A program made the translations under genes and the position numbers. 34,599 nt of DNA. It comes from Chloroflexota bacterium (GTDB lineage Bacteria; Chloroflexota; Anaerolineae; DUEN01). The notes below the pieces were generated by a model, which had not been told where the DNA came from, did not search any database, and saw nothing but the letters and a program-made list of their open reading frames with translations. Where the stretch lies: the NCBI GenBank assembly GCA_013152435.1, contig JAADGJ010000095.1:1-34599 (forward strand). Reading direction: 5' to 3'. Shown one piece after another: positions 3,639-20,450 of the stretch. The stretch's first letter is position 1. Each line of letters starts with the position of its first letter.

Positions 3639-4946
3639 TCAGGAGAAGAAGTGGGGCAACCACTCCCTCTGGGCCTCCAACAGGGCATCGGTGAGCTTCT
3701 CCGCCTGCTCCCGGGTGAACACATGCCCATCAGCCAGCATGGCCTGCACCACCAGCCGACGATCCCCACGCAGCGCGGCCTCCACCGTCAGCTCCTGCAC
3801 GCCGATCACCCGCAGCAGGATAGCCGTGATCCCCGGGGGCAGCTCCCCGAAGGCGATGGGATGAAAGCCGGAGCCGTTGACCAGCGTCGTCCCCTCCAGG
3901 ATCGCCCCCGCCGGAAGGTTGCTCGCCTGGCCGACATTGGGCAGGTTCGCCGAATAGAATCGACCGGCGTCATCCCACACGGATCGGAGGATCTCCACCA
4001 ACTGTGAATGCTCCCCGGCCCCGCCCTCCTCGGCCAGCGGCACACGGCCGTACGCCTCGTCGGCCATCCGCTGGAAGATCTGATCCCCCCGCTCGATGAT
4101 GGACTCGAAGGGCAAGGCGTCCACCCCCAGGGTGCGACCGTAATAGTCTCCTTCCCCGTGCCAACCCGGGAAGAACTCCACCACGTGGCTATCCAGCACG
4201 GCCGGGAAAGCTCCGAAAACCCGGAACAGATCCCATGAGAGCGGATTCTTCGCCACGGCATCCGGCTTTTCCGCCATCTTCTGACGTACCAGCGGCCACG
4301 CGTCCTCCCCCTGATAGCGCAGCTCCGTGATCCAGGTGAGATGGTTCACGCCGATGGCGGCCGACCACACCTCGTCGGGCGAGGCGTCGATGAAGCGCGC
4401 CAGGTAGTCGTGCACCTCCTTGACGCCGATACACAGGCCGACCACCTGCGCAGACGTGGCCTTGCGGACCGCCCGGCATACCACGGACATCGGGTTGGAG
4501 TAGTTGATGAAGATGGCATCCGGGCACAACGCCACCACATCCCTGGCGATGTCCACCATGGGAGGGACCATCCGCAGAGCCCGGGAGATGCCGCCGGGCA
4601 TGTAGGTATCCCCCACCGGATGATAGATACCGAACTCCCGGCAGACGAACACATCCTGCTCCCAGGCGCGGCGCCCCCCCACGCCGATGGTCGTGACCAC
4701 CGCATCGGCGCCCGGCAAAAGCTCGCGTCGATTCTCGGAGGCTCGCACCGTGATGGGGGCTTCGTGAGCCTCCACCAAGCGCTGCGCGAGCCGCCGGGCG
4801 ACCTCCAGGCTCCCCGGATGGATATCCACCAGGCGCAATTCCCACTCCCCGCCATCGGCGATCAGATTCTGCACCAGGCCGCGGGTGAACATGGCGCTCC
4901 CCGCGCCGATCAGCACGAGCACTTTGCGATCCGTTGCCGTTCGCAT
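3639..4946 (-). CDS. Glycoside hydrolase family 4 enzyme with unusual CIGV signature
   Basis: A 435-residue GH4 protein. GH4 enzymes use bound NAD+ and a divalent metal for redox-assisted glycoside cleavage. The dinucleotide site IGAG is at residues 13-16 and NYSNPM at 148-153. The metal-binding cysteine is Cys172 in GLCIGV, and the second metal ligand is His202 in GVNHLTW. Known GH4 groups read CHS (alpha-galactosidase), CDMP or CNVP (phospho-glucosidases) or CHE/CHG-like at the cysteine, so CIG leaves substrate specificity open. The start is well supported: GAAGGAG lies 7 bases before ATG 4946. It is first in the probable operon with the KbaZ-type gene. Sugar metabolism in the cytoplasm is the likely role. 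Confidence 0.87.
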   Translation of the reverse strand: MRTATDRKVLVLIGAGSAMFTRGLVQNLIADGGEWELRLVDIHPGSLEVARRLAQRLVEAHEAPITVRASENRRELLPGADAVVTTIGVGGRRAWEQDVFVCREFGIYHPVGDTYMPGGISRALRMVPPMVDIARDVVALCPDAIFINYSNPMSVVCRAVRKATSAQVVGLCIGVKEVHDYLARFIDASPDEVWSAAIGVNHLTWITELRYQGEDAWPLVRQKMAEKPDAVAKNPLSWDLFRVFGAFPAVLDSHVVEFFPGWHGEGDYYGRTLGVDALPFESIIERGDQIFQRMADEAYGRVPLAEEGGAGEHSQLVEILRSVWDDAGRFYSANLPNVGQASNLPAGAILEGTTLVNGSGFHPIAFGELPPGITAILLRVIGVQELTVEAALRGDRRLVVQAMLADGHVFTREQAEKLTDALLEAQREWLPHFFS

Positions 4947-6517: not shown

Positions 6518-7492
6518 TCACGCCTCTGCCGCGTCCCGCTTCACGCCGCGGGAGACGATGTCGTGACGTAGATGCTCGGAGATGATGCAGGGGACATCCG
6601 GGTTGACCTCCTGCATGAACTCACAGAATGCCCTCCGGGCAGGGGTCTGAGGCAGGTTCAAGTTGTAGGCGATGTACAGCCACCGCTTCATGGAAAGCCC
6701 CTCCAACGGCACGATATCCACCCGCCCCAGGGCGATGCAGCGTTCGGCCGCCACGCGAGGTACAAAGCCCAACCCGATCCCCTCCTCCACGGCCAGCAGG
6801 ATCGCCTCCGAATTCCCCACCACGAGCACCGTCTCCAGCCGGTCCACATCCACGCCCGCCTGATCCAGCCCCTCCAAAAGCGCCATGTGCGTGCCCGAGG
6901 TGGGCTCGCGCATGATGAAGCGCTCCTGATACAGCTCGAACGGGGAAATGCTCCCCTTCTGCGCCCACGGATGCCCCGATGGCACGACCAGCACGATCTC
7001 GTCCTCGAAGAAGCGGCAATAGTGCAACCCGGTGCGCTGCACCCGCTCGCTGGTCACCCCCAAATCGACCTCCCCGGAAAGCAGCCAGTCGATCACCTGG
7101 GAGCGCAGCCCCACGCGTATCGTCCCCCGCACCAGGGGATACCGCTCACGATATCGCGCCAGCAGCCAGGGGAGCACGTACTTCCCCGAGGTCGTGGAGC
7201 ACCCGATGACCAGATGGCCCACCACCTCTCCGGAGAGCGCCAGGGCCACCTCCTCGACCCGCTTGTGGGCGCGCAACAGCTCCTGAACCAGGGGCAAAAG
7301 AGTTTTTCCGGTCGCGCTCAGCTTGATGCGGCGGCCGTGCCGCTCGAAGAGCTGTACACCGAACCGTTTCTCCAGGGCGCCGATATGCTGACTCACCGCC
7401 GGCTGGCTCATGTGCAAGCGCTGCGCCGTCAACGAGAAGTTCTCCGTCTCCGCCGCCACCGCGAAGACCTGTAAGCTATCCGGATTCAACAC
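6518..7492 (-). CDS. LysR-family transcriptional regulator
   Basis: A 324-residue LTTR. The N-terminal winged helix-turn-helix (residues about 6-65) contains FSLTAQRLHMSQPAVSQHIG with ALEKRFGVQLFERHG after it. The effector-binding domain follows (about 90-295), starting at GEVVGHLVIGCSTTSGKY. I choose GTG 7492 over the upstream ATGs because AAGGAGGGG lies just upstream of it and LysR proteins usually begin a few residues before the SLQVFAVAAE block. It is divergent from the octaheme cytochrome gene, and the 198-bp gap has two good inverted repeats. By the usual LTTR pattern it probably controls that gene and itself. The effector is unknown; a redox or sulfur-related signal is only a guess. 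Confidence 0.92.
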   Translation of the reverse strand: MLNPDSLQVFAVAAETENFSLTAQRLHMSQPAVSQHIGALEKRFGVQLFERHGRRIKLSATGKTLLPLVQELLRAHKRVEEVALALSGEVVGHLVIGCSTTSGKYVLPWLLARYRERYPLVRGTIRVGLRSQVIDWLLSGEVDLGVTSERVQRTGLHYCRFFEDEIVLVVPSGHPWAQKGSISPFELYQERFIMREPTSGTHMALLEGLDQAGVDVDRLETVLVVGNSEAILLAVEEGIGLGFVPRVAAERCIALGRVDIVPLEGLSMKRWLYIAYNLNLPQTPARRAFCEFMQEVNPDVPCIISEHLRHDIVSRGVKRDAAEA

Positions 7493-7531
7493 GGGTCCCC
7501 TCCTTGGCGTCATTACCGTTCCCAATCAGAG

Positions 7532-7596: not shown

Positions 7597-7690
7597 ACAT
7601 GCGTACAGGAACCGCTATGTAGCGATCCACAGGAGAGCCCCTCGCTCGATCCCAGGGCTCCACCATCATCCCGTCCAAGGAGGTAGGAGG

Positions 7691-10309
7691 ATGCAAGGGA
7701 AAAGGAAACGACGCTGGCTCACAGCAGCGGTTGCGCTGGCCGCCCTGATGCTCGCATCCGGCTGGCTGTGGGCAGGCGGCGCGCTGGCCGCACCACAGGA
7801 GGCCACGCAAGCGCAGGCGATCCCCAAGAAGCACCCGCCGTTCTTTCTGCGCAACGAGGCCGGCGAGGTGATCAACCCGCTCACCGGGGAGAACGCCGAC
7901 CAGCCCTACAGCCCACGCCAGACGTGCAGCGCCTCCGGATGCCACGACTACGATACCATCACCGGGGGGTATCACTTCCAACAGGGTGCGGACGTCATCA
8001 GTGATCACTTCGATCCCGAACGGCCGTGGGTGCTGTCCGACGGCATGTTCGGGAAGTTCTGACCGCCCTCCTTTCGCCAGTTGGCGAAAAAGCACAACGA
8101 AACCCCAGATGAGATCGACATCACCGTCTGGCAGTGGGTGACGACGGGCCCGCCCAACATGCCCACCTGCGCCGGATGCCATCCCGGCGGCGGCCCGCTG
8201 GAGTTCGACCGGGATGGGCAACGCTACGACCAGGCCCTGGTCGCCAATCCATCCCTGCGAGACTCGCTGGATGGGGACTACATGGGCAGCCACTGGGATC
8301 AGAGCGGCGTGTTGGAGGCGGACTGCCTGCTCTGTCACTCCCCTGACTACGACTGGAAGGGAAGGATCGGGCAGCTCAAAAGCTGGAACCTGAAATGGGC
8401 CGCCACAGCCGCCGGTCGCCTGGGGATCGTAAAGGGGCGCATCTTCGACCCCGAGACGAAGCAGCTGACCGGGGAGACCCCAACCGTCGTCTACAACAGG
8501 CGGCTCTTCAACGAGGACGGCAAGGTGGCGCTGGACATCAACTACCGGCCGGCGGACACCAACTGCCTGCAATGCCACGGCCCCGCGGACATGAAGAAGC
8601 GAGGGTTCAGCTGGAACGACCCCATCAATCCGGACGTGCACAACCAGCAGGGCATCCAGTGCGTGGACTGCCATCCGGGGGATATCTCGCACAACTTCGC
8701 CAAGGGCCACACGACCATCGAGACGGTGCGGGATGACCTGGACAAGACGATGCGCTCCTGCGAGGACTGCCACACCACGGGCTACCTGGGCGCATCCATC
8801 CCGGACCACGTGAACATCCCGCCATCGCACCTGAAGGCGATCGCCTGCGAGACCTGCCATATCCCCCAGAAGCACCGGGCCGCCGGTGAGTATTTCGACA
8901 GCACCTACGGCTCCCTGCATTGGGACATCATCGGGGGGGCGGAAAAGTGGGGACAGCCGGCCGACTGGTATCCGGCCTATGAGGAATTCGACGGCCAGAT
9001 CCACCCGGTGAACCCCATCTTCGGCATCTGGTGGGGCAATCGGGAGGCGGATGGGACCGTCTATCCGCTCTTCGCCCGGGAGCTGGCCAAGGCGTGGGCC
9101 GTATACAAGGACCAGGTCACCGACGATAACGGGGACGGCTTCCCGGAGGTGAACCGGCGGGAGGAGATCGAAGCCGGGCTGCACGCGCTGGAACAGACGC
9201 TGGCCGGCAACGCCCGCTTCACCCAGATACACCCGGTGTTCGTCAAAGGGGACAAGCTGTGGGAGTTCGACGACAGCGGCGCCCTGATCGGGCATCCCGC
9301 GCCGGAGTGCAAGGGCGAGGCCTTCTCCATCAGCCACAACGTCGCGCCGGCGATGGAGGCGCTGGGGGCAGGCGGCTGCAACGACTGCCACAGCCGGCAG
9401 GGCGAGTTCTTCAACCGCACCCACATCGTGGATCCCTTCGACGAGGAGGGCAAACAGGTCATCGAGCCGGTGCGGTGGACCATCGGCGTCAGCGATTTCA
9501 GCTACACGCTCTGCTCGATCCACTGTCCCCTGGTGCGCCCCTGGATCGGCGGGCTGCTCCTCCTCGTCTTCTTCGCCACCACGCTCCACTTCACCCGCTA
9601 TGGGCCGCACGACTTCGGCGGCCGGCCGCTCACTCCCAGGCCGGATGACTACGAACGGATCGAGCGTTACAGCTGGTTCGAGCGCCTGGTCCACCTGATC
9701 GTGCTGATGACCTTCCTGTTCCTGGCGTTCACCGGCCTGGCCTTCGCCTATAACGGCGGGCGGTGGCTACAGCTCGTCTTCGGGAACACGCTCACCCCGC
9801 GCGTGTGGCACGGCTGGCTGGGGTTCGTCTTCGGCGCCGGCGTCATCATCATGTTCATCCTGTGGTGGCGCGACGCGGTGCTGATCCCCAGCGACCGGGA
9901 GTGGCTTCGCAAGCTGGGCGGCTACCTGGGAGGACACGTGCCCGCCGACCGCTTCAACGCGGGCCAGAAGATCTACTTCTGGACGGTGATCATCGGCGGC
10001 ATCGTCCTGCTCATCACCGGCACGCTCCTCTTCTTCCGGGACTCGCTTCCCAACGATGTGGTCTTCCTGGCCGTGATCATTCACGATCTGGCGGCGCTCT
10101 TCGGCGTGGCCGGAGTGCTATCTCACGTCTATCTGGGCACGGCGGCCAATCCCGGCACGATCCAGGCCATCTTCGCCGGCTGGGTCACCAAGGGATGGGC
10201 CAGGCTGCACCACCCGCTCTGGTACGAGAAGATCACGGGTCGTCCGGCCATCAACGGACAGGCGACGTCAGAGGAGCCGAAGGCCAACACAAAGGCATCA
10301 GAGGAGTGA
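7691..10309 (+). CDS. Octaheme cytochrome c / cytochrome b fusion with in-frame TGA (probable selenocysteine, codon 124)
   Basis: Read through TGA 8060-8062, this is one 872-residue protein. Residues 1-34 are a Sec-type signal peptide. Haem motifs are CX4CH at 79-85 and CXXCH at 160, 212, 292, 324, 357, 386 and 563, making eight. From about 615 to 815 there are about five membrane helices with a formate dehydrogenase gamma/cytochrome b556-like sequence, which suggests electron exchange with quinones. The c-type part resembles the octaheme tetrathionate-reductase-like group, so reduction or oxidation of a sulfur or nitrogen compound outside the membrane is plausible. AAGGAGGT precedes ATG 7691 by 6 bases. 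The part after TGA has no Shine-Dalgarno and no signal peptide, yet it carries seven haem sites that need export. Both halves are in the same frame. A degraded gene or two ORFs are the alternatives. Confidence 0.8.
8060..8062 (+). other. In-frame TGA, candidate selenocysteine codon (residue 124)
   Basis: The TGA lies between GMFGKF and PPSFRQLAKK with no frame change and no disrupted sequence on either side. The position follows an aromatic residue and precedes the first CXXCH. As I recall, octaheme tetrathionate reductase has a cysteine in a similar place close to its catalytic haem. TGA is used as a normal stop in this window, including at the end of this gene, so a whole-genome Trp reassignment is unlikely. 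Confidence 0.6.
8072..8089 (+). promoter_or_regulatory. Candidate bacterial SECIS hairpin
   Basis: Arms TTTCGCC (8072-8078) and GGCGAAA (8083-8089) form a perfect 7-bp stem with loop AGTT. The loop starts after 16 bases from the TGA and has G as its second base, followed by T (U in RNA). The bacterial SECIS pattern, as established for SelB-dependent genes, asks for a stem-loop just downstream of UGA, a 16-37 base distance to a small apical loop, and a G in its first two bases. All are met. The hairpin is inside coding sequence. Confidence 0.55.
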
Positions 10310-10497: not shown

Positions 10498-11916
10498 TCA
10501 ATAATCCTCGAACGGCGGGATGTAATCGCCGTGGGCCTCAATGAGCTCGTCCACCAGGGCGTCGATCTCGTCCAGCGTCAACTCGGCCGCCGTGTGAGGA
10601 TCGAGCATGGCCGCGTAATAGACGTAGTCCCGTCGCCGCTCCAGCGCCGCCTTCACGGTCAGCTCCTGCACGTTGATGCTGGTGCGCATCAGCGCCGCCA
10701 GGTGCGGGGGCAGCTCGCCGACGCGCACGGGCTGCACGCCCGCGCCGTCCACCAGGCAGGGCACCTCCACGCAGCATCCCTGCGGCAGGTTGTCGATCAG
10801 CCCGTAGTTCATCACGTTGCCGTAGATCACGCGCGGCTGGCCCGTCTCCATGGAGTGGATGATGAGCGTGCCGTACTCGCCGGAGTGGCGTGACTTGCCC
10901 TCCGCCTGGGCCTGCTCCCACTCCTTGCGGAGCTGCTCCGCCCGCTCGGGGTCCTCCTCGGCGATCCGCTTCAGCCACTCCTCCATCTTCTTTCGCTCGT
11001 AGCGCACGATGGCCTCCGGATCGGGATCCTCCAGCGCCGCCTTCATCTCATCCCAATCGGCGATCTGGGCCTCGCACCGCCGCGGGTACTCATCCAACGG
11101 GACGTTGAAACGCTCGATGAGGTCGGGGCGATCGCGGCGGATGAAGTAAGGTACGTATTCGGCGAAGTGCTCGCTGGACTCGGTGACGAAGTAGCCCAGC
11201 CGGCGGAACATCTCGAACCGCACGCGATCGTCATCCGGCACCCGCCCCTCCTCGATCACCTGGCGCAGCCGCGGGTACAGATCTTCGCCCTTGCGCTCGA
11301 AGCGCAGGTAGAACGCCATGTGGTTGATGCCCGCGCAGACGTAGGTGATCTCCTCATAGGGAATGCCCAGGATGCGGGCCAGATGGGCGGCCGTGCCCTG
11401 GACGCTGTGGCACAACCCCACCGTCTTGATGTTGGTGGCCTGGTTCATGGCCCAGGTGAGCATGGCCATGGGATTGGTGTAGTTGATGAAGAGCGTGTCG
11501 GGACACAGCTCCTCCATGTCACGGGCCATGTCCAACATGACCGGGATGGTGCGCAGGGCGCGCATGATGCCGCCGATGCCCAGCGTGTCGCCGATGGTCT
11601 GGCGCAGCCCGTACTTCTTGGGGGTCTCGAAGTCGATGACGGTGCTGGGCCGATAGCCGCCCACCTGGATCATGTTGATGACGTAATCGGCGCCGTCCAG
11701 CGCCTGGCGGCGATCCGTGGTCGCCTCGATGGTGGGATGGGCGTTAGCCGCCTCGGCCACCCGATGCGCCACGATCTCCGACGTGCGCAGACGATCGGGA
11801 TCGATGTCCATGAGGGAGATGGTGACATCATGCAGCTCCGGGAAGATGAAGATGTCACGCAACAGGTTCCGGGCGAAGACGGTGCTCCCCGCGCCGATGA
11901 AGGTGATCTTGGCCAT
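10498..11916 (-). CDS. GH4 alpha-galactosidase (MelA-like)
   Basis: A 472-residue GH4 enzyme, slightly longer than the ~450 usual for the family. The NAD+-binding IGAGST is at residues 7-12, NYTNPM at 145-150, and the alpha-galactosidase-type signature GLCHSVQ at 167-173, with metal ligand Cys169. INH at 197-199 supplies His199. It hydrolyses alpha-galactosides in the cytoplasm by an NAD+/Mn2+ redox mechanism; alpha-glucosidase activity also occurs in the CHS group. A charged insert (about 300-350, rich in Glu, Lys and Arg) explains the extra length. I start at ATG 11916 ([10 protein letters not shown]) with GGAGG 9 bases upstream; the 24 residues before it look non-coding. It is monocistronic with its own terminator. 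Confidence 0.9.
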
Positions 11917-12019
11917 GTCCTCGTTCCTCCATGCCAGAAATTGGGCGTCCTGTGGAAAAGCAGGCAAGATCAGTATACCGCAGCTCACCCATATGGCAAG
12001 GGGAAAAACAGGTGCAACG

Positions 12020-12194: not shown

Positions 12195-15100
12195 TCACCT
12201 CCCAGATCGGCGCCGGCAGCACAGCCCCAGCATGCCCAGGGCCAACATTATCCCGCCGAGGAGCGTCAGCAGGCCTGGCGCCCATTCCTGGCCTGTGTTG
12301 GAGACCGTGAACCGCCTCAGGTTGACCGCGGTTGGGCCGGCGGCGATGTCCAGGCATCTGGAGAACTCGGATGTATTGCCGCTCGGGTCCGTCGCCGTGG
12401 CGGCGATAAACCGATAAGGCGGGGAGATCTCCTGGGAGAAGGCGGCGGTGAACGCCACGTGCCCGCTCCCGTCCGTGGTCACCGACTTAGAGCCGAGAAA
12501 CCGCCGTCCCTCGCCATGCCCTGATGCATCGCACGCGCCATCGTAGAAAAACCTGAGGGTGTAAGCGGTCTGGGCCGCGGCATCCAGCGTGCCCGTGATG
12601 ACCGTGCCGTTGGTATCGCTGACCCCCTTCTTCAAGACGGGATAGTTCTGCAGATCGTTGCCGCCCGAGTCGCCGTCGGCGGGATCGTTGGCCGTCACGC
12701 CGTCGTCGCCCAGGTCGATGCCGAGACCACCGTTGCTGAAGATGATGTTGGGATCGACGCGGTTGCCCGTGCCGTAGAGCACAGCGATGCCAGCGCCGCC
12801 ATTGTAGGCGATCAGATTACCCTCCCCGGTGGCTGTGCCCCCGACGAGGTTGCCATTGGCATACCTCAGCTCCACGCCGTTATCCTGATTCCCCAAGCCT
12901 TTCGTGCCGCTGACATCGGTGCCGATCAGGTTGCCCTGGACCTTATTTCCCGATGCGTAGGAGCCGGTAAACGCCTTATTATCCATATCGACGCCATCAT
13001 CATCATTCCCGGAAATGAGGTTGCAGGCGCCGGTGCACGGCCCGCCAGGTGTTGTCCCCGTCGCGCCACCGATGACATTGTTGACGGCTCCAACGAGGGC
13101 GATTCCATCACCGTTGTTACCCAGCTTCGCCGTTCCCGTGGTGTCGGTGCCGATGAAGTTCCCCTGGACCACGTTGCCCGTGGCACCGTTGCCCTGGATC
13201 TCAATGCCCGGCCCCACCCCGTTGCCGGAGATGAGGTTACGCGCAGCCGGCGTGGTCCCCCCGATGACGTTATTGGGGGCACCATCGATGCTTATGCCGA
13301 TCCGATTGCCCACGGGAGCCTTCCCGCTGACGTCCGTGCCGATGAAGTTCCCCTGGACCACGTTGCCCGTGGCACCACTTCCGCTGATGGTCAGACCCGT
13401 CACCTGGTTACCCGAAAGGAGGTTACAGGCGCCGGTGCACGCCCCTCCCGGCGTCGTCCCAGCCGTCCCGCCGATCGTGTTGCCGGGGGCATCCGAGATG
13501 ACGATGCCGTTCGCGCAATTGCCCAACTTGGCCGTGCCGCTTCGGTTGGTGCCTACGAAGTTCCCCTGCACCACATTGCCGGAGGCGGCGCTCCCATCGA
13601 TATAGATGCCGTAATCATCGCCGATGATGAAGTTGCGCTCGGCCGATGTCGCCCCTCCGATGGTGTTCCCGGGCGCGCCCACGATGCGGACCCCCACATC
13701 GGTCACGGACGCGTCCCACGGCGTCAAGTTTGGCAGCGCCGTGATGCCGGCGGCATCCATGCCGATGAGGTTCCCGCGGACCACATTGCCGGTCGCGCTG
13801 CCGCCGGAGATCCGGATGCCATCGCCGTCATTGCCCGCGATGAGGTTATCGCTAACAACCGTGTTAGGCGCGCCATCGATCAGCAGGCCGCCCCCTACGT
13901 TCCCCCGATCCGAGCCGCCGTCGGCGCTGGTGCCGATGCGGTTGTGCCGTACCTGATTCCCGCTGGCGCCGCCGCCGGAGATGATGACGCCGGTGGGGGA
14001 GGTCCCCTGGCCGCTGCCGTTGCCCGACACCACGTTGCCCTGGTCGGCGCTGTCCCCGCCGATGATGTTCCCGGGCGCCCCCTCGACGAATACGCCCCCG
14101 GACCAGTTGCCCAGAGCCAATCCACCGTTCATCTGAAGGCCGATATAGTTCCCCTGGATCCGGTTGCCCGTTGCGTGGCTCCCCTTGATATACACGCCGT
14201 AGCCGTTGTTGGCGGCGATCACGTTGCGCGCCGCCGCGTCGCTGCCGCCGATGGTGTTGTTCGGCGCGTCCTGGATGAGCACGCCATGGTTGAAGTTCTT
14301 CACCTCGGCCGCGCCCAGGTAATCCGTGCCGATGAGATTCCCCTGGACCACGTTGCCCGATGCCGTCGTCCCGGAGATGACCACGCCATACACGTTTCCG
14401 GAGATGATGTTTCCGGCATGGGCCGCGGTGCCGCCGATGGTGTTGCCGGATCCGCCCTCGATCTGCACCCCGCTCCCGTAATTGTTCACCGCGGCCGAGC
14501 CGCCGGGGTTCGTGCCGATGACGTTGCCCTGCACCAGGTTCCCGGTGGACCCCGCCCCCGTGATGAAGACGCCACCCGACTCGTTGCCCGAGATCTGGTT
14601 GCCGTCTGAAACTCCCGTCCCGCCGATGAGGTTATTGGCCGAGTTCAGGATGTAGATCCCATACAGCCCATTGTTCCGAGCCGCGTAGTCGCCGTTGACG
14701 TCCGTGCCGATGTAGTTCCCCTGGATGACGTTGCCACCGCCGCCGCTTAGCTTGATGCCGTTGCCCCCGAAGCTGTTGATCGCCAACCCGCGGATGGTGC
14801 TATGTCCGCCGGTGATGACCAGGCCATCGGCGCTCGAGCCCGCCAGGCTCCCATTCAGCTCGATGCCCGGACCGGCCCCATGATTGGGCTGAGACGTCCC
14901 ATCGATGGTCACCGGATCGGTAATGGGGGGAAGAGCGGATCGCGGCTGGATGGTCCGCACACCACCGCCGCCGATGTTGAATTCGATCACGTCCGCTCCC
15001 CTACTGGCGTTCGCCTCCTGGATGGCGGCTCGGAGCGAGCAGCGGCCATCGACGTCCATGGCGATGCCATCGCCTACACGCATGTCGTCGCTGTCGGTCG

Positions 15101-18100
15101 TGGTATCCACGATCAGCTTCTGGTAGGCGGGGCCGCCCGGGTCCACGATCTCCCCGTTGGCCGTGAGGTCGTCATCCCCACGCTGCCCATCGACGAGGTG
15201 GATCAGCAGGGTATGAGCATCCACTATCTCCACCCCGGTGGTGCCATCATACATAAAGCGATACCAGTGGGGCAATGGGTCCGTCGGCGTCGGGCCGTAC
15301 TTCCAGAAAGTGTTCAACGTATAGGTGGGATGGAGGATGAGCCGGATGGTGACCGCCTGGCCGGGCGTGAGCCCTTTGATGGTGAAGTGATACAGGCCCA
15401 TGGGATACGTCGTATGCGGCGGAGCCGTGAACGGGTCCGGGTTCGGCCTTATCCCCACATCCGTCAACTGGACGCCATTGGGGGCCACAAAGGTCGCATA
15501 CTCGTTGTGATCGTTGAGCAGTGATGCCACGTTATCCTGCTGGCTATCCGGGATGCCGTCGTTGTTGCCGTCGCCGTTGTTCGGGGCCCCATCCTCTATC
15601 TGATCGCTCACGCCGTCGGCGTCCGCGTCGGGCGCGGGCTGAATGGTCGTGGTCTCAGCCGCCTGGTTGTCCGACTCATCCGGGTCGGGCGTGGTCGATG
15701 TCACCGTGACTTCGTTCGTGATAGAGCCCGTCTGTGCCGGGGCTCTCACCCGGAGGGTGATGTTCACGACGGCCGGGCTGGCCAGATCGCCCAAATTCCA
15801 TATCAGGGGAGGCCCCACGCTAGTGGGCGCGGGGTTCGCGGAGATAAAGGCCACGCCCGGCGGTAACGCGTCCCGCACCGTCACGTCCTTGGCTGGGGCC
15901 GGCCCCACATTGGAAACTGTGATCCTGTATTCGAATTCGGTCCCCGCGACGACCGGATCGGCCGAGTCCGATTTCAGGATCTCCAGGCGCGCGCCGCGTT
16001 TGACCTGCGTGGGTTCCTCATCCTGGTTGTTGTCCTCATTTGGATCCGGCTCCGCCGCCGAGACGTAGACTTTGTTGAGAAGCCATCCCTCTTGCGCAGG
16101 GGCCTTGAGCCGGAGGTTGATCTCCCAGGATTCATTCGGGGCCAGGGTATTCCGTCGACATATTATCGTATGGCCCGTATGCGTACACTCTTGCGGGATA
16201 CTGATCACGCCCACATTCACCGGTACCGTGCCGGTAACCACGACCATTTCCGTCGGTAACGTGTCGGTAACCACGAGCGAGGTGGCCGTCTCAGGGCCAT
16301 TGTTCATGACGATAATGTTATGCGCGATCTCGCCTTCCGTCGCTACCGGGTCTCGCATATCCAGGATGACGGGCTCCAGATCCGCGCCCGGCCGGACGGT
16401 CGTCTCCTCCTGGGCGACGTTATTGAAGTACGAAGGATCAGGCTCCGCGGCGCTAACGATGACATCGTTCTCGATCGTCCCCTCTTGCATCGGTGCCCTG
16501 AGTTCGACGGAAACATCCTTGCAGTCCCCCGGGCTCAAGGTGCCAAAGTCGCAGCTCACGACGCCGCTGGCATACGAACACGCGGAGGCGTTCGCGCCAT
16601 ACAACTCCACAAAGGCGGCGCCTGAGGGTAATGTATCGGTCAACCGGACATTCGTGGCTACCTTAGGACCACCATTCGTGACGGTGAGGTTATATACGAG
16701 CCGTCCGCCCATCGCTACCGGATCCTTCAAATCCGAGTTGGTCACCTGAATATCCGCTCCCTGCTCCACCACGGTCTGCTCCGTGGCCGCGTTGTTGTTC
16801 AGATCGGGGTCCGGCTCTCTTCCCCTCGCGACGACCTGATTGACAATGGTGCCCTCGTCCTTGGGCGCTTTCAGGTTGACGGTCAGCACCCTGGCGGCGC
16901 CGCTGGCTAATGAACCAACGGTACATACGATCTGATTACCCGAGCGCGTGCAATCAGGCCCTGCGTCATCGAAGGTTACACCAGCGGGAAGGGTATCGGT
17001 GACTACGACCTGCGTGGCATCCTCCGGCCCCCTGTTCGTCACGGAGATCTTGTAGGTCAGCTCCCCTTCCGTAGCCACGGGATCATGTAGATCCCGCATC
17101 GTGATCTGGATATCCGCACCCTGTCTGACCGAGGTCTGCTCCACCCGGCTGTTGTTTGAGGTATCAGGATCCGGCTTAGCGCTTGAGATGGTGACGTGAT
17201 TTGTAATCGTGCCCTCCTGCTGAGGCGCTTTCACCTTGATGAAGAACATCGTGCCCTGGTTCGCGGGCACATCGCCGACATCACAGGTGATCGTGACGCC
17301 GCTGTGCGTACATCGGGGTGGATCCGGATCGCCGGGGAGGGGCTCCACCTTGACGAAGGTCACCCCGGCGGGCAACGTGTCGGTCACCCGCATCCGCGTG
17401 GCCGTCTCCGGACCGTGGTTCGCCAGGGAGATCACATAAGTCAAGTCCCCACCCACCGCGACCGGATCCGGACTGTCAACTTGATTGATGGCCACGTCAG
17501 CGCCCCCGACGTAGATCGCCTTGGCGGCCCTGTTATTAGATCGGTCAGGATCATCTGGATCAACCAGGTCTACCTCCACCGTGTTCGTGATGACCCCTGT
17601 CTGTTGCGGCGCCCTGACCGTGATGTCCACTCCTATCATATCGCCAGCCGCGAGATCGGGGAGGATACACTTGATCAAACGGGGATTACCTGTCTCCTGG
17701 GCACAGTACGAGCTGGGTTCGACGCTGATAAAGGTGACTCCCTGGGGCAATGTATCGACCAGGTTGGGCGCAACGGCCTTTTCCGGGCCGTTGTTGGCGA
17801 TCTGGATAACATAGGATAAGCGCGCCTCCGGCCGGACGGGATCGGGGTTGCCGTCTATCTGGAGGCTCAAATCGGCGCCGCCGACGGCCACGACCGCCGA
17901 GGCTTTATTATCCGATGGATCGGGGTCGAACTCCCAGGCGACGACCTCTACGGTGTTCGTGATCGTCCCCCTTTGCGTGGGTGCTTTGAGGGTGATGTCC
18001 ACCTGAACCGAGCTATTGGCGGCAAACGTATCCCACGAACAGCGCACCTGATCGTTCACGTAACGGCAATGTGAGCTGGGGGCGACACTGACGAAGCTCG

Positions 18101-20450
18101 TGCCGGCCGGCAGGATGTCGAACAGCATCACCGAGGTCGCCGCGTTAGGCCCCTGGTTGCTCACAGTGATCCGATGGTGGATATCCCCGCCCGGCGCCAC
18201 ACGCTGAGGCGACGCGGTCTTGGTCACGCTTAAGTCGGCCGTCTTGGCGGCGATCGCGACCACAAAGGCGTCTTGATAGGCGGCACGGGCTCTCTGATAG
18301 GGGGCCTTGGTGGGAAAACGGTCGGATTCCGTCCTCCCTGACACGAAGATATTTGCCCCGTCCGTTGTCACGGCAATGCCGAGCCCTATATCGGTTCCTT
18401 CGCCACCCAGGAAGCTGGAGAACAGCAGGGAGGCGGCGCCGCTTTGCGCGGGGTTGAGTTCTGCTACGAAGGCATCGCTTCCCCCGCCGCCATAGGTGGG
18501 ATAGAGCGCCTGCACGGTGGGGAAGTTCTGCGAGGATGTGCTCCCCACCGCGTAGAGCTTGCCATCATTCAGGGCCAGAGCCTCGATGTCGTCCGAATCG
18601 CTCCCGCCCAGGAATGTGGAGTAAAGTAACGCCGTGCCCGCGGCGTTGATTCCGGTGATAAAGCCATCACCGTGCCCACCATACGAGCTCTGATACGCGT
18701 TCGTAACCGGAAAATCCGCCGAGCCGGTCCCTCCCGCGACGTAAACCTTGCCACCATCCTCAACGATGCCAAACCCCGTCTCTCCGCCGCTACCGCCCAA
18801 GTAAGTGGAATAGATCAAGGCCGTGCCCGCAGCGTTCAACTTGGTGACGAAGGCATCTGTCGTCCCTTTCAAAGCGCTCTGCAGAGCGCCCTGTATCGGG
18901 TAATCCGCGGACTCGGTCCATCCGGTCACATAGCAGGTATCGTCCAGAGCATCAACAACGATGTCTGTGCCCACATCATCGCCACTTCCTCCCAGGTAGG
19001 TCGAGTAGACGAGAGAGGACGCTCCTGATTTCGCCGTATCCAGCTTTGTCACGAAAGCATCACCATACTCACTACCGGCCGCGGTACCACCCCCGTACTG
19101 GCCTTGGAATGCGCCATTTGTAATCGGGAAATCCACGGAGTTGGTATATCCGGTCACATAGACAGCATTTCCGTCTGCGTAGACGCCTTCCCCACTTTCC
19201 GCCCCCTGGCCGCCAAGATACGTGGAGTACAACAGAGCCCCCGAGCCGCTATCCAATTTTGTTATGAAAGCATCCGCTCCGGGAACGCTTCCTGGCTGAA
19301 AGGCGTTCTTGACCGGGAAGTCGATGGAGAAGGTCACCCCGGTGACATACACGGCCCCCATGGACAGGCTGATATCGTTAACCCAATCCGCTCCACCGAC
19401 CCCATAAGGCACCCCATCTGTCGTCCCACCGAGATAGGTGGCAAAGGCGAGCCGACCATCGGAGTAGAACTTAGCGATAAAGGCATCCGTTTCCCCGGGA
19501 GCACTCCCACTAGTCCCCGGGAAATCGGTGGAGCTGGTCAATCCAGCCACGTAAGAGGTCTTATCGGACGAGTCCACAGTCACCGCGCGCGCTTCGTCGT
19601 TCCCGTTCCCCCCCAGATAAGTGGACCAAGCGAGGGTCGGGTCGATCACCAATGGACGCGAGGGATCGTAGGGCCCCACGCGGAATCCCACTTCCCGCTC
19701 CCCGAGGAGGACGAACCGGCCGGGGATCGAATGTCGGATACCCTCCACCTCCTGATAGATGAACGGCGCGCTTTCCACTAGCTCGCCCCCATCCACCTGC
19801 AGCACGAGGGCCCCATCCTCCCGTAGACGTAGGGCCTCCACGCCCTCGTAGGCCAGCCGGATCGCCCTCGGATTCGCCCCAGGCGCGACCAGGAACGTGC
19901 TCTTCAGCTTTCCACCCTCCCCGCCATAGATCAGATCCACGCCCGGGTAGAGGTCACGATACACCACGGATCCATAGGCGGGTACGCGCGTGCGCCACCT
20001 CGCCGGGTCATTGCCGATGTAGTAATTGATGATGGCCGACTGGCGATCGCGTCCCCTCATATCCGGGACAGGGTTAGCGCCCACAAAGCGGATGCGTATG
20101 GTGGCCCCCTTCGCCGGGCTTTCCTCTCCTCTAGGAATCGCCAGCGGAACGCTACGCAGCGCCAGCCAGAGGGCCTCTTGGGTTAGCCAGGCCGTCCCCC
20201 CGCTTACCCCATGCATAAGGAAACGTACACGGGGATCGAATTGCCCCACGTTTTGGACGAACCATAGCGACACCCCGCGCAGGCCATGGGTCGGACCCGT
20301 TTGCTCGTCCATCAGATCAACCAGCCCGGCCACGTGCCCATCCGAGGGAGACGGTGCCCCAAGCGCCGGCTCCCAGCCACCCGGCACACAGGCCGAGACC
20401 AAGAGCAAGATGAGCCAAGCGGATACCCCAAGTTCACAAAGGCGTTTCAT
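12195..20450 (-). CDS. Giant secreted repeat protein: DUF7948, SBBP, DUF11 and beta-helix domains (2751 aa)
   Basis: Start ATG 20450 has GGAGG 6 bases upstream. The N-terminus carries a lipobox, LVSAC, with Cys21. Then come a DUF7948-like region (about 60-270: LWFVQNVGQFDPRVRF), SBBP beta-propeller repeats with STYLGG motifs (about 270-735), and seven DUF11 repeats of ~115-120 residues (about 737-1600: GADxxxxxxDxxDPV starts, TNTVEV ends). Next are a Ca-binding thrombospondin-3-like strip (DADADGVSDQIEDG), a choice-of-anchor-U-like domain, a CSLRAA block near 1805, and about 15-20 right-handed beta-helix units (about 1850-2600: GNVVQGNFIGTD, NNVIGG). The C-terminus has a hydrophobic helix and CCRRRSGR. 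It is a surface adhesin or matrix-like protein with no visible catalytic motif. It is the last gene of the operon, 66 bp after the small gene. Confidence 0.92.
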   Translation of the reverse strand: MKRLCELGVSAWLILLLVSACVPGGWEPALGAPSPSDGHVAGLVDLMDEQTGPTHGLRGVSLWFVQNVGQFDPRVRFLMHGVSGGTAWLTQEALWLALRSVPLAIPRGEESPAKGATIRIRFVGANPVPDMRGRDRQSAIINYYIGNDPARWRTRVPAYGSVVYRDLYPGVDLIYGGEGGKLKSTFLVAPGANPRAIRLAYEGVEALRLREDGALVLQVDGGELVESAPFIYQEVEGIRHSIPGRFVLLGEREVGFRVGPYDPSRPLVIDPTLAWSTYLGGNGNDEARAVTVDSSDKTSYVAGLTSSTDFPGTSGSAPGETDAFIAKFYSDGRLAFATYLGGTTDGVPYGVGGADWVNDISLSMGAVYVTGVTFSIDFPVKNAFQPGSVPGADAFITKLDSGSGALLYSTYLGGQGAESGEGVYADGNAVYVTGYTNSVDFPITNGAFQGQYGGGTAAGSEYGDAFVTKLDTAKSGASSLVYSTYLGGSGDDVGTDIVVDALDDTCYVTGWTESADYPIQGALQSALKGTTDAFVTKLNAAGTALIYSTYLGGSGGETGFGIVEDGGKVYVAGGTGSADFPVTNAYQSSYGGHGDGFITGINAAGTALLYSTFLGGSDSDDIEALALNDGKLYAVGSTSSQNFPTVQALYPTYGGGGSDAFVAELNPAQSGAASLLFSSFLGGEGTDIGLGIAVTTDGANIFVSGRTESDRFPTKAPYQRARAAYQDAFVVAIAAKTADLSVTKTASPQRVAPGGDIHHRITVSNQGPNAATSVMLFDILPAGTSFVSVAPSSHCRYVNDQVRCSWDTFAANSSVQVDITLKAPTQRGTITNTVEVVAWEFDPDPSDNKASAVVAVGGADLSLQIDGNPDPVRPEARLSYVIQIANNGPEKAVAPNLVDTLPQGVTFISVEPSSYCAQETGNPRLIKCILPDLAAGDMIGVDITVRAPQQTGVITNTVEVDLVDPDDPDRSNNRAAKAIYVGGADVAINQVDSPDPVAVGGDLTYVISLANHGPETATRMRVTDTLPAGVTFVKVEPLPGDPDPPRCTHSGVTITCDVGDVPANQGTMFFIKVKAPQQEGTITNHVTISSAKPDPDTSNNSRVEQTSVRQGADIQITMRDLHDPVATEGELTYKISVTNRGPEDATQVVVTDTLPAGVTFDDAGPDCTRSGNQIVCTVGSLASGAARVLTVNLKAPKDEGTIVNQVVARGREPDPDLNNNAATEQTVVEQGADIQVTNSDLKDPVAMGGRLVYNLTVTNGGPKVATNVRLTDTLPSGAAFVELYGANASACSYASGVVSCDFGTLSPGDCKDVSVELRAPMQEGTIENDVIVSAAEPDPSYFNNVAQEETTVRPGADLEPVILDMRDPVATEGEIAHNIIVMNNGPETATSLVVTDTLPTEMVVVTGTVPVNVGVISIPQECTHTGHTIICRRNTLAPNESWEINLRLKAPAQEGWLLNKVYVSAAEPDPNEDNNQDEEPTQVKRGARLEILKSDSADPVVAGTEFEYRITVSNVGPAPAKDVTVRDALPPGVAFISANPAPTSVGPPLIWNLGDLASPAVVNITLRVRAPAQTGSITNEVTVTSTTPDPDESDNQAAETTTIQPAPDADADGVSDQIEDGAPNNGDGNNDGIPDSQQDNVASLLNDHNEYATFVAPNGVQLTDVGIRPNPDPFTAPPHTTYPMGLYHFTIKGLTPGQAVTIRLILHPTYTLNTFWKYGPTPTDPLPHWYRFMYDGTTGVEIVDAHTLLIHLVDGQRGDDDLTANGEIVDPGGPAYQKLIVDTTTDSDDMRVGDGIAMDVDGRCSLRAAIQEANASRGADVIEFNIGGGGVRTIQPRSALPPITDPVTIDGTSQPNHGAGPGIELNGSLAGSSADGLVITGGHSTIRGLAINSFGGNGIKLSGGGGNVIQGNYIGTDVNGDYAARNNGLYGIYILNSANNLIGGTGVSDGNQISGNESGGVFITGAGSTGNLVQGNVIGTNPGGSAAVNNYGSGVQIEGGSGNTIGGTAAHAGNIISGNVYGVVISGTTASGNVVQGNLIGTDYLGAAEVKNFNHGVLIQDAPNNTIGGSDAAARNVIAANNGYGVYIKGSHATGNRIQGNYIGLQMNGGLALGNWSGGVFVEGAPGNIIGGDSADQGNVVSGNGSGQGTSPTGVIISGGGASGNQVRHNRIGTSADGGSDRGNVGGGLLIDGAPNTVVSDNLIAGNDGDGIRISGGSATGNVVRGNLIGMDAAGITALPNLTPWDASVTDVGVRIVGAPGNTIGGATSAERNFIIGDDYGIYIDGSAASGNVVQGNFVGTNRSGTAKLGNCANGIVISDAPGNTIGGTAGTTPGGACTGACNLLSGNQVTGLTISGSGATGNVVQGNFIGTDVSGKAPVGNRIGISIDGAPNNVIGGTTPAARNLISGNGVGPGIEIQGNGATGNVVQGNFIGTDTTGTAKLGNNGDGIALVGAVNNVIGGATGTTPGGPCTGACNLISGNDDDGVDMDNKAFTGSYASGNKVQGNLIGTDVSGTKGLGNQDNGVELRYANGNLVGGTATGEGNLIAYNGGAGIAVLYGTGNRVDPNIIFSNGGLGIDLGDDGVTANDPADGDSGGNDLQNYPVLKKGVSDTNGTVITGTLDAAAQTAYTLRFFYDGACDASGHGEGRRFLGSKSVTTDGSGHVAFTAAFSQEISPPYRFIAATATDPSGNTSEFSRCLDIAAGPTAVNLRRFTVSNTGQEWAPGLLTLLGGIMLALGMLGLCCRRRSGR

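Follow-up and report, generated by a model that had tools for sequence, protein, structure and literature searches.

The gene at positions 7691–10309 (+) of the DNA analysed here encodes a fusion of octaheme cytochrome c and membrane cytochrome b, and carries an in-frame TGA (8060–8062) that very probably specifies selenocysteine. This joint claim on coding and fused architecture rests on comparison, as no experiment has shown selenium in the protein. The DNA, a stretch of 34,599 nucleotides from a Chloroflexota bacterium (assembly GCA_013152435.1, contig JAADGJ010000095.1) referred to below as the window, lies on contig 95 of a 4.97-Mb draft genome that is 95.8% complete. By comparison, selenocysteine (Sec) coding, the SECIS hairpin, the domain architecture, the fold of octaheme tetrathionate reductase (OTR) and the match of Lys303 to an OTR residue are shown. 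A function as reductase and the role of Sec as the catalytic residue are inferred in the absence of activity data, and are preferred by a narrow margin only.

Reading frame and domain layout

The gene forms a single frame from ATG 7691 to TGA 10307–10309 with one internal TGA at 8060–8062, and this layout is confirmed. Its features and those of the neighbouring regulator gene are as follows.

6518–7525 (−): divergent gene for a LysR-type regulator, close to NF040786 (selenium metabolism-associated LysR) at 233 bits, where the cut-off is 250
7677–7683 (+): Shine-Dalgarno sequence AAGGAGG, strong, read from the sequence
7691–10309 (+): whole gene, Sec-containing octaheme cytochrome c with cytochrome b fusion, 872 residues
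7691–7792 (+): hydrophobic N-terminal export signal, residues 1–34, from the sequence; helix 2–28 in the structure model
7925–7945 (+): haem motif 1, CX4CH, residues 79–85; CXXCH in most homologues
8060–8062 (+): in-frame TGA, selenocysteine 124, from frame reading and homologue alignment
8072–8089 (+): SECIS hairpin TTTCGCC-AGTT-GGCGAAA, loop 8079–8082
8168–8182 (+): haem motif 2, CAGCH, residue 160
8324–8338 (+): haem motif 3, CLLCH, residue 212
8564–8578 (+): haem motif 4, CLQCH, residue 292
8597–8599 (+): Lys303, aligned to K153 of OTR chain 1SP3 by profile alignment
8660–8674 (+): haem motif 5, CVDCH, residue 324
8759–8773 (+): haem motif 6, CEDCH, residue 357
8846–8860 (+): haem motif 7, CETCH, residue 386
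9377–9391 (+): haem motif 8, CNDCH, residue 563
9656–10234 (+): membrane cytochrome b domain of the formate dehydrogenase gamma type, residues 655–849 (TIGR01583, 1KQF chain C)

Eight haem motifs are thus present in the window protein, one CX4CH before the TGA and seven CXXCH after it. The C-terminal cytochrome b scores above the curated cut-off of TIGR01583 (155 bits, cut-off 115.85) and matches the fold of 1KQF chain C (FdnI) with a Z-score of 20.2; a fold search with the full-length model returned cytochrome b relatives only. The original prediction, made from the sequence alone, had described one in-frame TGA joining two halves of the same frame, with the export signal and the CX4CH before it and seven CXXCH and the cytochrome b after it, and all of this held.

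It is possible that the divergent LysR-type regulator controls the selenocytochrome gene. A LysR-like reading frame lies at the corresponding place in the related locus L027, although no alignment comparison was made. Elsewhere in the window, positions 12195–20450 (−) encode a protein of 2751 residues that combines seven DUF11 repeats with DUF7948 and beta-helix domains, and two genes for GH4-type glycosidases (3639–4946 and 10498–11988) are located near it.

The TGA column, its hairpin and the decoding machinery

The closest copies of the window protein are found in two further Chloroflexota, a Caldilineae bacterium (L027, 90%) and a Thermoflexales bacterium (L026, 84%), both of which carry TGA at the identical codon. 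Altogether, the column of residue 124 is TGA in 20 loci, 3 from Chloroflexota and 17 from the Desulfobacterota group, and no further in-frame stop occurs near this shared column across the 20 genomes. Many relatives among sulfate reducers thus show this feature. The window-type form is restricted to three of the 396 genomes of the class covered by the profile search; a search of 395 genomes from the phylum of a Desulfobacterales hit gave relatives in 61, and 17 of the loci read contain TGA. Cys occupies the column in four homologues, L028 (Coatesbacteria), L029 (Desulfobacterales), L108 and L117. The check proposed at the outset, whether homologues have Cys or Sec at residue 124, thus came out in favour: all close homologues carry TGA, and another four have Cys. 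A separate group of shorter proteins without cytochrome b displays Ser, Gln, Trp or Phe at this position (Trp in L109, encoded by TGG), and Asp or Asn stands there in distant homologues from the Anaerolineae class. In view of these forms, a chalcogen at residue 124 is not needed in every member of the family.

Between the three Chloroflexota species, dN/dS is 0.06–0.08 upstream of the TGA (signal peptide excluded) and 0.08–0.11 in the cytochrome c part downstream of it, at dS values of 0.57–1.05. Since synonymous sites have diverged and dN/dS is nevertheless low, purifying selection acts on the sequence before and after the TGA alike. In the phylogenetic tree, the three Chloroflexota proteins group with six proteins of the Desulfobacterota group (99/98), apart from a second Sec clade. 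Within the latter, L108 and L117, both with Cys, form the sister group of the Sec members, and an exchange between Sec and Cys within the family is therefore likely.

Two observations were made alongside. About 95 other genomes of the class contain distant relatives (L035–L061), and the 27 that were read have Asp or Asn (FGKWDP) and lack the haem 2 motif. The Desulfobacterales Cys copy (L089/L029) is interrupted by a TAG and a frame change, reflecting either an assembly error or a pseudogene.

The hairpin at 8072–8089 comprises 7 bp with the loop AGUU, has an energy of −9.7 kcal/mol and begins its loop 16 nt past the TGA. It satisfies the published bSECIS rules (loop 3–9 nt, stem 4–16 bp, G within the first two loop bases, spacing 16–37, MFE ≤ −7.5; PMC13188914), so that the original claim of a perfect 7-bp hairpin with an AGTT loop after 16 bases, in agreement with bacterial SECIS rules, also held. 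However, a perfect stem of at least 7 bp at SECIS geometry is found at 23 of the 954 TGA triplets of the window (both strands), and the hairpin alone is for this reason weak evidence. The strong sign is its conservation over 20 genomes, most Sec forms having retained it. The spacing in Sec members is 16 in the clade with PPSFRQLAKK or 22 in the clade with a two-residue insertion. Moreover, the loop-spanning codons for Gln-Leu-Ala are CAG-TTG-GCG in all 20 Sec forms and in none of the 13 non-Sec forms; these counts are phylogenetically non-independent, but the Sec clades are only about 33–50% identical to the window protein. None of the Cys forms has a hairpin at SECIS geometry, although L108 and L117 code for almost the same peptide there.

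Three members (L104, L107 and L114) have Pro in place of Arg, and the stem is rebuilt from other bases in a different register. Of the 20 Sec forms, three (L090, L104 and L107) have a perfect stem of just 4 bp with energies of −4.8 to −5.0, and these miss the −7.5 rule when bulges are left out of the scoring. RNAalifold gave no consensus structure for a mixed-register alignment of 11 SECIS regions, which is likely due to the one-base shift of the pairing partner in L104, L107 and L114. As a side observation, L113 and L118, with Ser (TCA) at the site, carry an 8-bp hairpin TTCGAGTC-AGTT-GACTCGAA at the SECIS position. Their TCA is one base off TGA, and the hairpin could be a fossil SECIS or a chance occurrence.

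The original prediction had named selA, selB, selC and selD as genes bearing on the Sec reading. Three of them, selA, selB and selD, were detected in the organism's own genome, all above the cut-offs, but selC (tRNA-Sec) is missing from the present assembly, though present in both Chloroflexota relatives. The selA gene is split across two contig ends (G000:C147:3-1262 and C96:33350-33808); the two pieces overlap by about 130 model residues, indicating an assembly overlap or two copies. The selD gene (L019:1471-2600, corresponding to G000:C61:15736-16665) has an in-frame TGA of its own within CAGUASKL. This position is the usual Sec site of SelD, and the Sec-type selD is a second sign of Sec decoding in the organism as well as a good positive control. 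Neither a covariance model nor pattern and DNA searches found selC in this 95.8%-complete assembly, and the best hits of the Rfam tRNA-Sec search in the own genome were classified by ARAGORN as other tRNAs only. The gene situated beside selC in a sister species is found elsewhere in the own genome, without the tRNA. In both Chloroflexota relatives carrying the selenocytochrome gene, a tRNA-Sec was called by ARAGORN, and the two are 90% identical to each other. A gap in the draft is the simplest reading of the missing selC.

Fold, possible haem ligands and gene neighbourhoods

A model of the cytochrome c domain was built with 32 aligned sequences (pLDDT 77, pTM 0.77); its confidence is low in the Sec loop. 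VIA-align superimposes this model on OTR chain 1SP3 with a Z-score of 10.7 and an r.m.s.d. of 4.4 (322 aligned, 21% identity), the next row reaching 3.6. With Foldseek, 1SP3 was not among the best 50 rows for the domain model, nor was any cytochrome. A profile search of solved chains again gave 1SP3 as the best match (E 1.6e-10). By comparison, the cytochrome c domain thus has the OTR fold. The cut-off of the OTR family TIGR04315 (375 bits) is not met, with 45 bits for the window protein and 69.7 for the best scored member.

Lys303, situated in a KKRG motif, is aligned with K153 of 1SP3, and the active-site haem of OTR is ligated by a Lys (PMC12285233). Lys303 is Lys in 21 of 21 Sec and Cys members and Arg in 3 of 11 others. 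An alignment of 23 members contains six invariant non-motif His for eight haems (H95 falls into an alignment gap in four shortened or misaligned rows), and one or two haems are therefore left for other ligands or for substrate. Lys338 is also available as a possible haem ligand. The predicted likeness to OTR consequently held for the fold (1SP3) and for a Lys (K303 against residue 153). The original prediction also put forward a Cys near the catalytic haem of OTR, at a place comparable to that of the TGA. The profile of the N-terminal part alone matched no solved chain and gave no alignment at the region of this putative Cys.

The gene neighbourhoods differ between the clades. Arsenic genes are present in 7 of the 13 neighbourhoods of the second Sec clade and its Cys forms (L127–L139). 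ACR3, ArsM, one ArsG and ArsR/SmtB-type regulators score above their cut-offs, while ArsC and ArsP-like permeases remain below. An arsenic or thioarsenic substrate is accordingly a reasonable guess, for this second clade only. The 8 neighbourhoods examined for the window's own clade contain no arsenic gene, and no shared gene set is apparent in this clade; the ArsM hit in L123 looks UbiE-like. Several loci of the second clade and its Cys forms are adjoined by RND efflux genes. In the rows examined for plasmids and phages only the cytochrome b part was matched, and no relative was found on viral contigs.

Proposed working, rival readings and known systems

In the proposed working, SelB and tRNA-Sec insert selenocysteine at UGA 8060 under the guidance of the downstream hairpin. 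The product would be one exported, membrane-anchored polypeptide, its topology being inferred. In this model, the FdnI-type cytochrome b would exchange electrons with the quinone pool and pass them along the octaheme chain, in an inferred direction, to a catalytic haem for which Lys303 may be an axial ligand. Sec124, located between haem motifs 1 and 2, would be the catalytic chalcogen near this Lys-ligated haem and may attack or hold the substrate, in the role of a soft nucleophile or of a ligand. The substrate would most likely be a soft oxidant, such as an S-S, S-oxyanion or arsenic compound; there is no substrate evidence for the window's clade. A reductase is suggested because of the OTR fold, and the window protein is most likely, by inference, a quinol-linked periplasmic reductase. 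The claim of a Sec-containing reductase is thus supported for Sec, while the reductase role is inferred.

Four rival readings were weighed against this model. The TGA could be a true stop, in a pseudogene or a split gene, or a sequencing error. Table 11 has TGA as an ordinary stop, the gene itself ends with TGA and broken genes are common in drafts; against this stand 20 genomes from two groups that have TGA in the identical column and no other in-frame stop nearby, strong purifying selection on both halves and the tie of the SECIS to the TGA state. This leaves next to no room for the reading. Just as little remains for a TGA that is translated as Trp or Cys, either through a reassigned codon or through plain readthrough. 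This alternative can draw on L109 with Trp (TGG) at the site, but it is opposed by selA, selB, a Sec-type selD and tRNA-Sec in the species or its relatives, by the Cys of those non-Sec relatives that lie closest to the Sec clades and by conservation of the SECIS together with the TGA. Sequencing error, pseudogene and reassigned stop are ruled out by the conserved TGA column in combination with the selection.

The remaining rivals accept Sec and concern its function. The enzyme might mainly oxidize a donor towards quinone, or serve in As, Se or Te detoxification, instead of being a tetrathionate-type respiratory reductase. This is supported by arsenic genes (ACR3, ArsC, ArsR, ArsM, ArsP-like, ArsG-like) in 7 of 13 neighbourhoods of the sister clade and Cys forms, and by the fact that an FdnI-type cytochrome b normally moves electrons from a periplasmic donor to quinone. 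However, no arsenic gene occurs in the eight neighbourhoods of the window's own clade and the fold is that of a reductase, so that this rival, though a serious one, stays below the preferred reading. It was also considered that Sec124 serves as axial ligand of a haem instead of reacting as a nucleophile, as just six invariant non-motif His face eight haems. This is unlikely, since members with Gln or Trp at the site, and most of those with Ser or Phe, retain all eight haem motifs and both Lys303 and Lys338 are available as ligands. The preferred reading remains a reductase with Sec124 as the putative catalytic residue. A bolder version, for which the balance tips slightly to the negative, would see Sec-dependent octaheme reductases of the OTR fold across Desulfobacterota and Chloroflexota, with a selenol beside a Lys-ligated haem and a reaction unknown for any selenoenzyme. 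The substrates of the branch found near arsenic genes would be arsenic, organoarsenic or thioarsenic compounds, and the window's branch, fused to a quinone-linked cytochrome b of its own, would be a complete respiratory enzyme in one polypeptide.

Among known systems, OTR of Shewanella oneidensis (1SP3/TIGR04315) shares eight c-haems, the fold and the KKRG Lys on residue 153. In contrast to OTR, the window protein has Sec between haem motifs 1 and 2, a fused membrane cytochrome b and a cytochrome c part that is more than 100 residues longer, and lies far under the TIGR04315 cut-off. The C-terminal domain resembles FdnI, the gamma subunit of formate dehydrogenase N (1KQF chain C), in sequence and fold; unlike FdnI it is fused to an octaheme cytochrome, and no adjacent formate dehydrogenase alpha or beta genes were identified. 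ExtKL of Geobacter (NF040886) likewise belongs to the multiheme c-type cytochromes and has one residue encoded by UGA (PMC1914089, PMC13188914). In 2007, attention had been drawn to an in-frame TGA in a Geobacter cytochrome with five N-terminal CXXCH and a C-terminal part of unknown nature (PMC1914089), which we take to be ExtKL; ExtKL is also listed in a 2026 catalogue of prokaryotic selenoproteins (PMC13188914). NF040886 was not among the matches of the family members analysed here.

The same catalogue lists, without description, a GenBank-annotated 'Tetrathionate reductase family octaheme c-type cytochrome, TIGR04315, WP_331457571.1' (PMC13188914). This protein is a possible relative, since its annotation is that of a selenoprotein and OTR-family octaheme cytochrome; the members scored here fall below the TIGR04315 cut-off and are therefore probably another clade. 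The original remark that this fusion type was not known to have been described needs this correction, as a Sec octaheme cytochrome is not wholly new given the existing annotation; the family is real and barely described. The literature searched, subscription papers excluded, contained no description of the clade, the cytochrome b fusion, the SECIS or the arsenic link. What is new is this clade and its fusion to cytochrome b, the occurrence in two phyla, the SECIS and the link of the sister clade to arsenic genes.

The Sec forms with a hairpin and the Cys forms without one provide a clean natural set for studies of SECIS elements, and the tie of the sister clade to arsenic genes offers a testable substrate. 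In most genomes, members of this family are probably annotated as two separate fragments, so that a probable respiratory enzyme of Desulfobacterota and Chloroflexota would be overlooked. Selenoproteins are mostly thiol oxidoreductases or metal enzymes with Se on Mo, W or Ni. If a selenol indeed lies next to a catalytic haem of the c type, this would represent a different chemistry.
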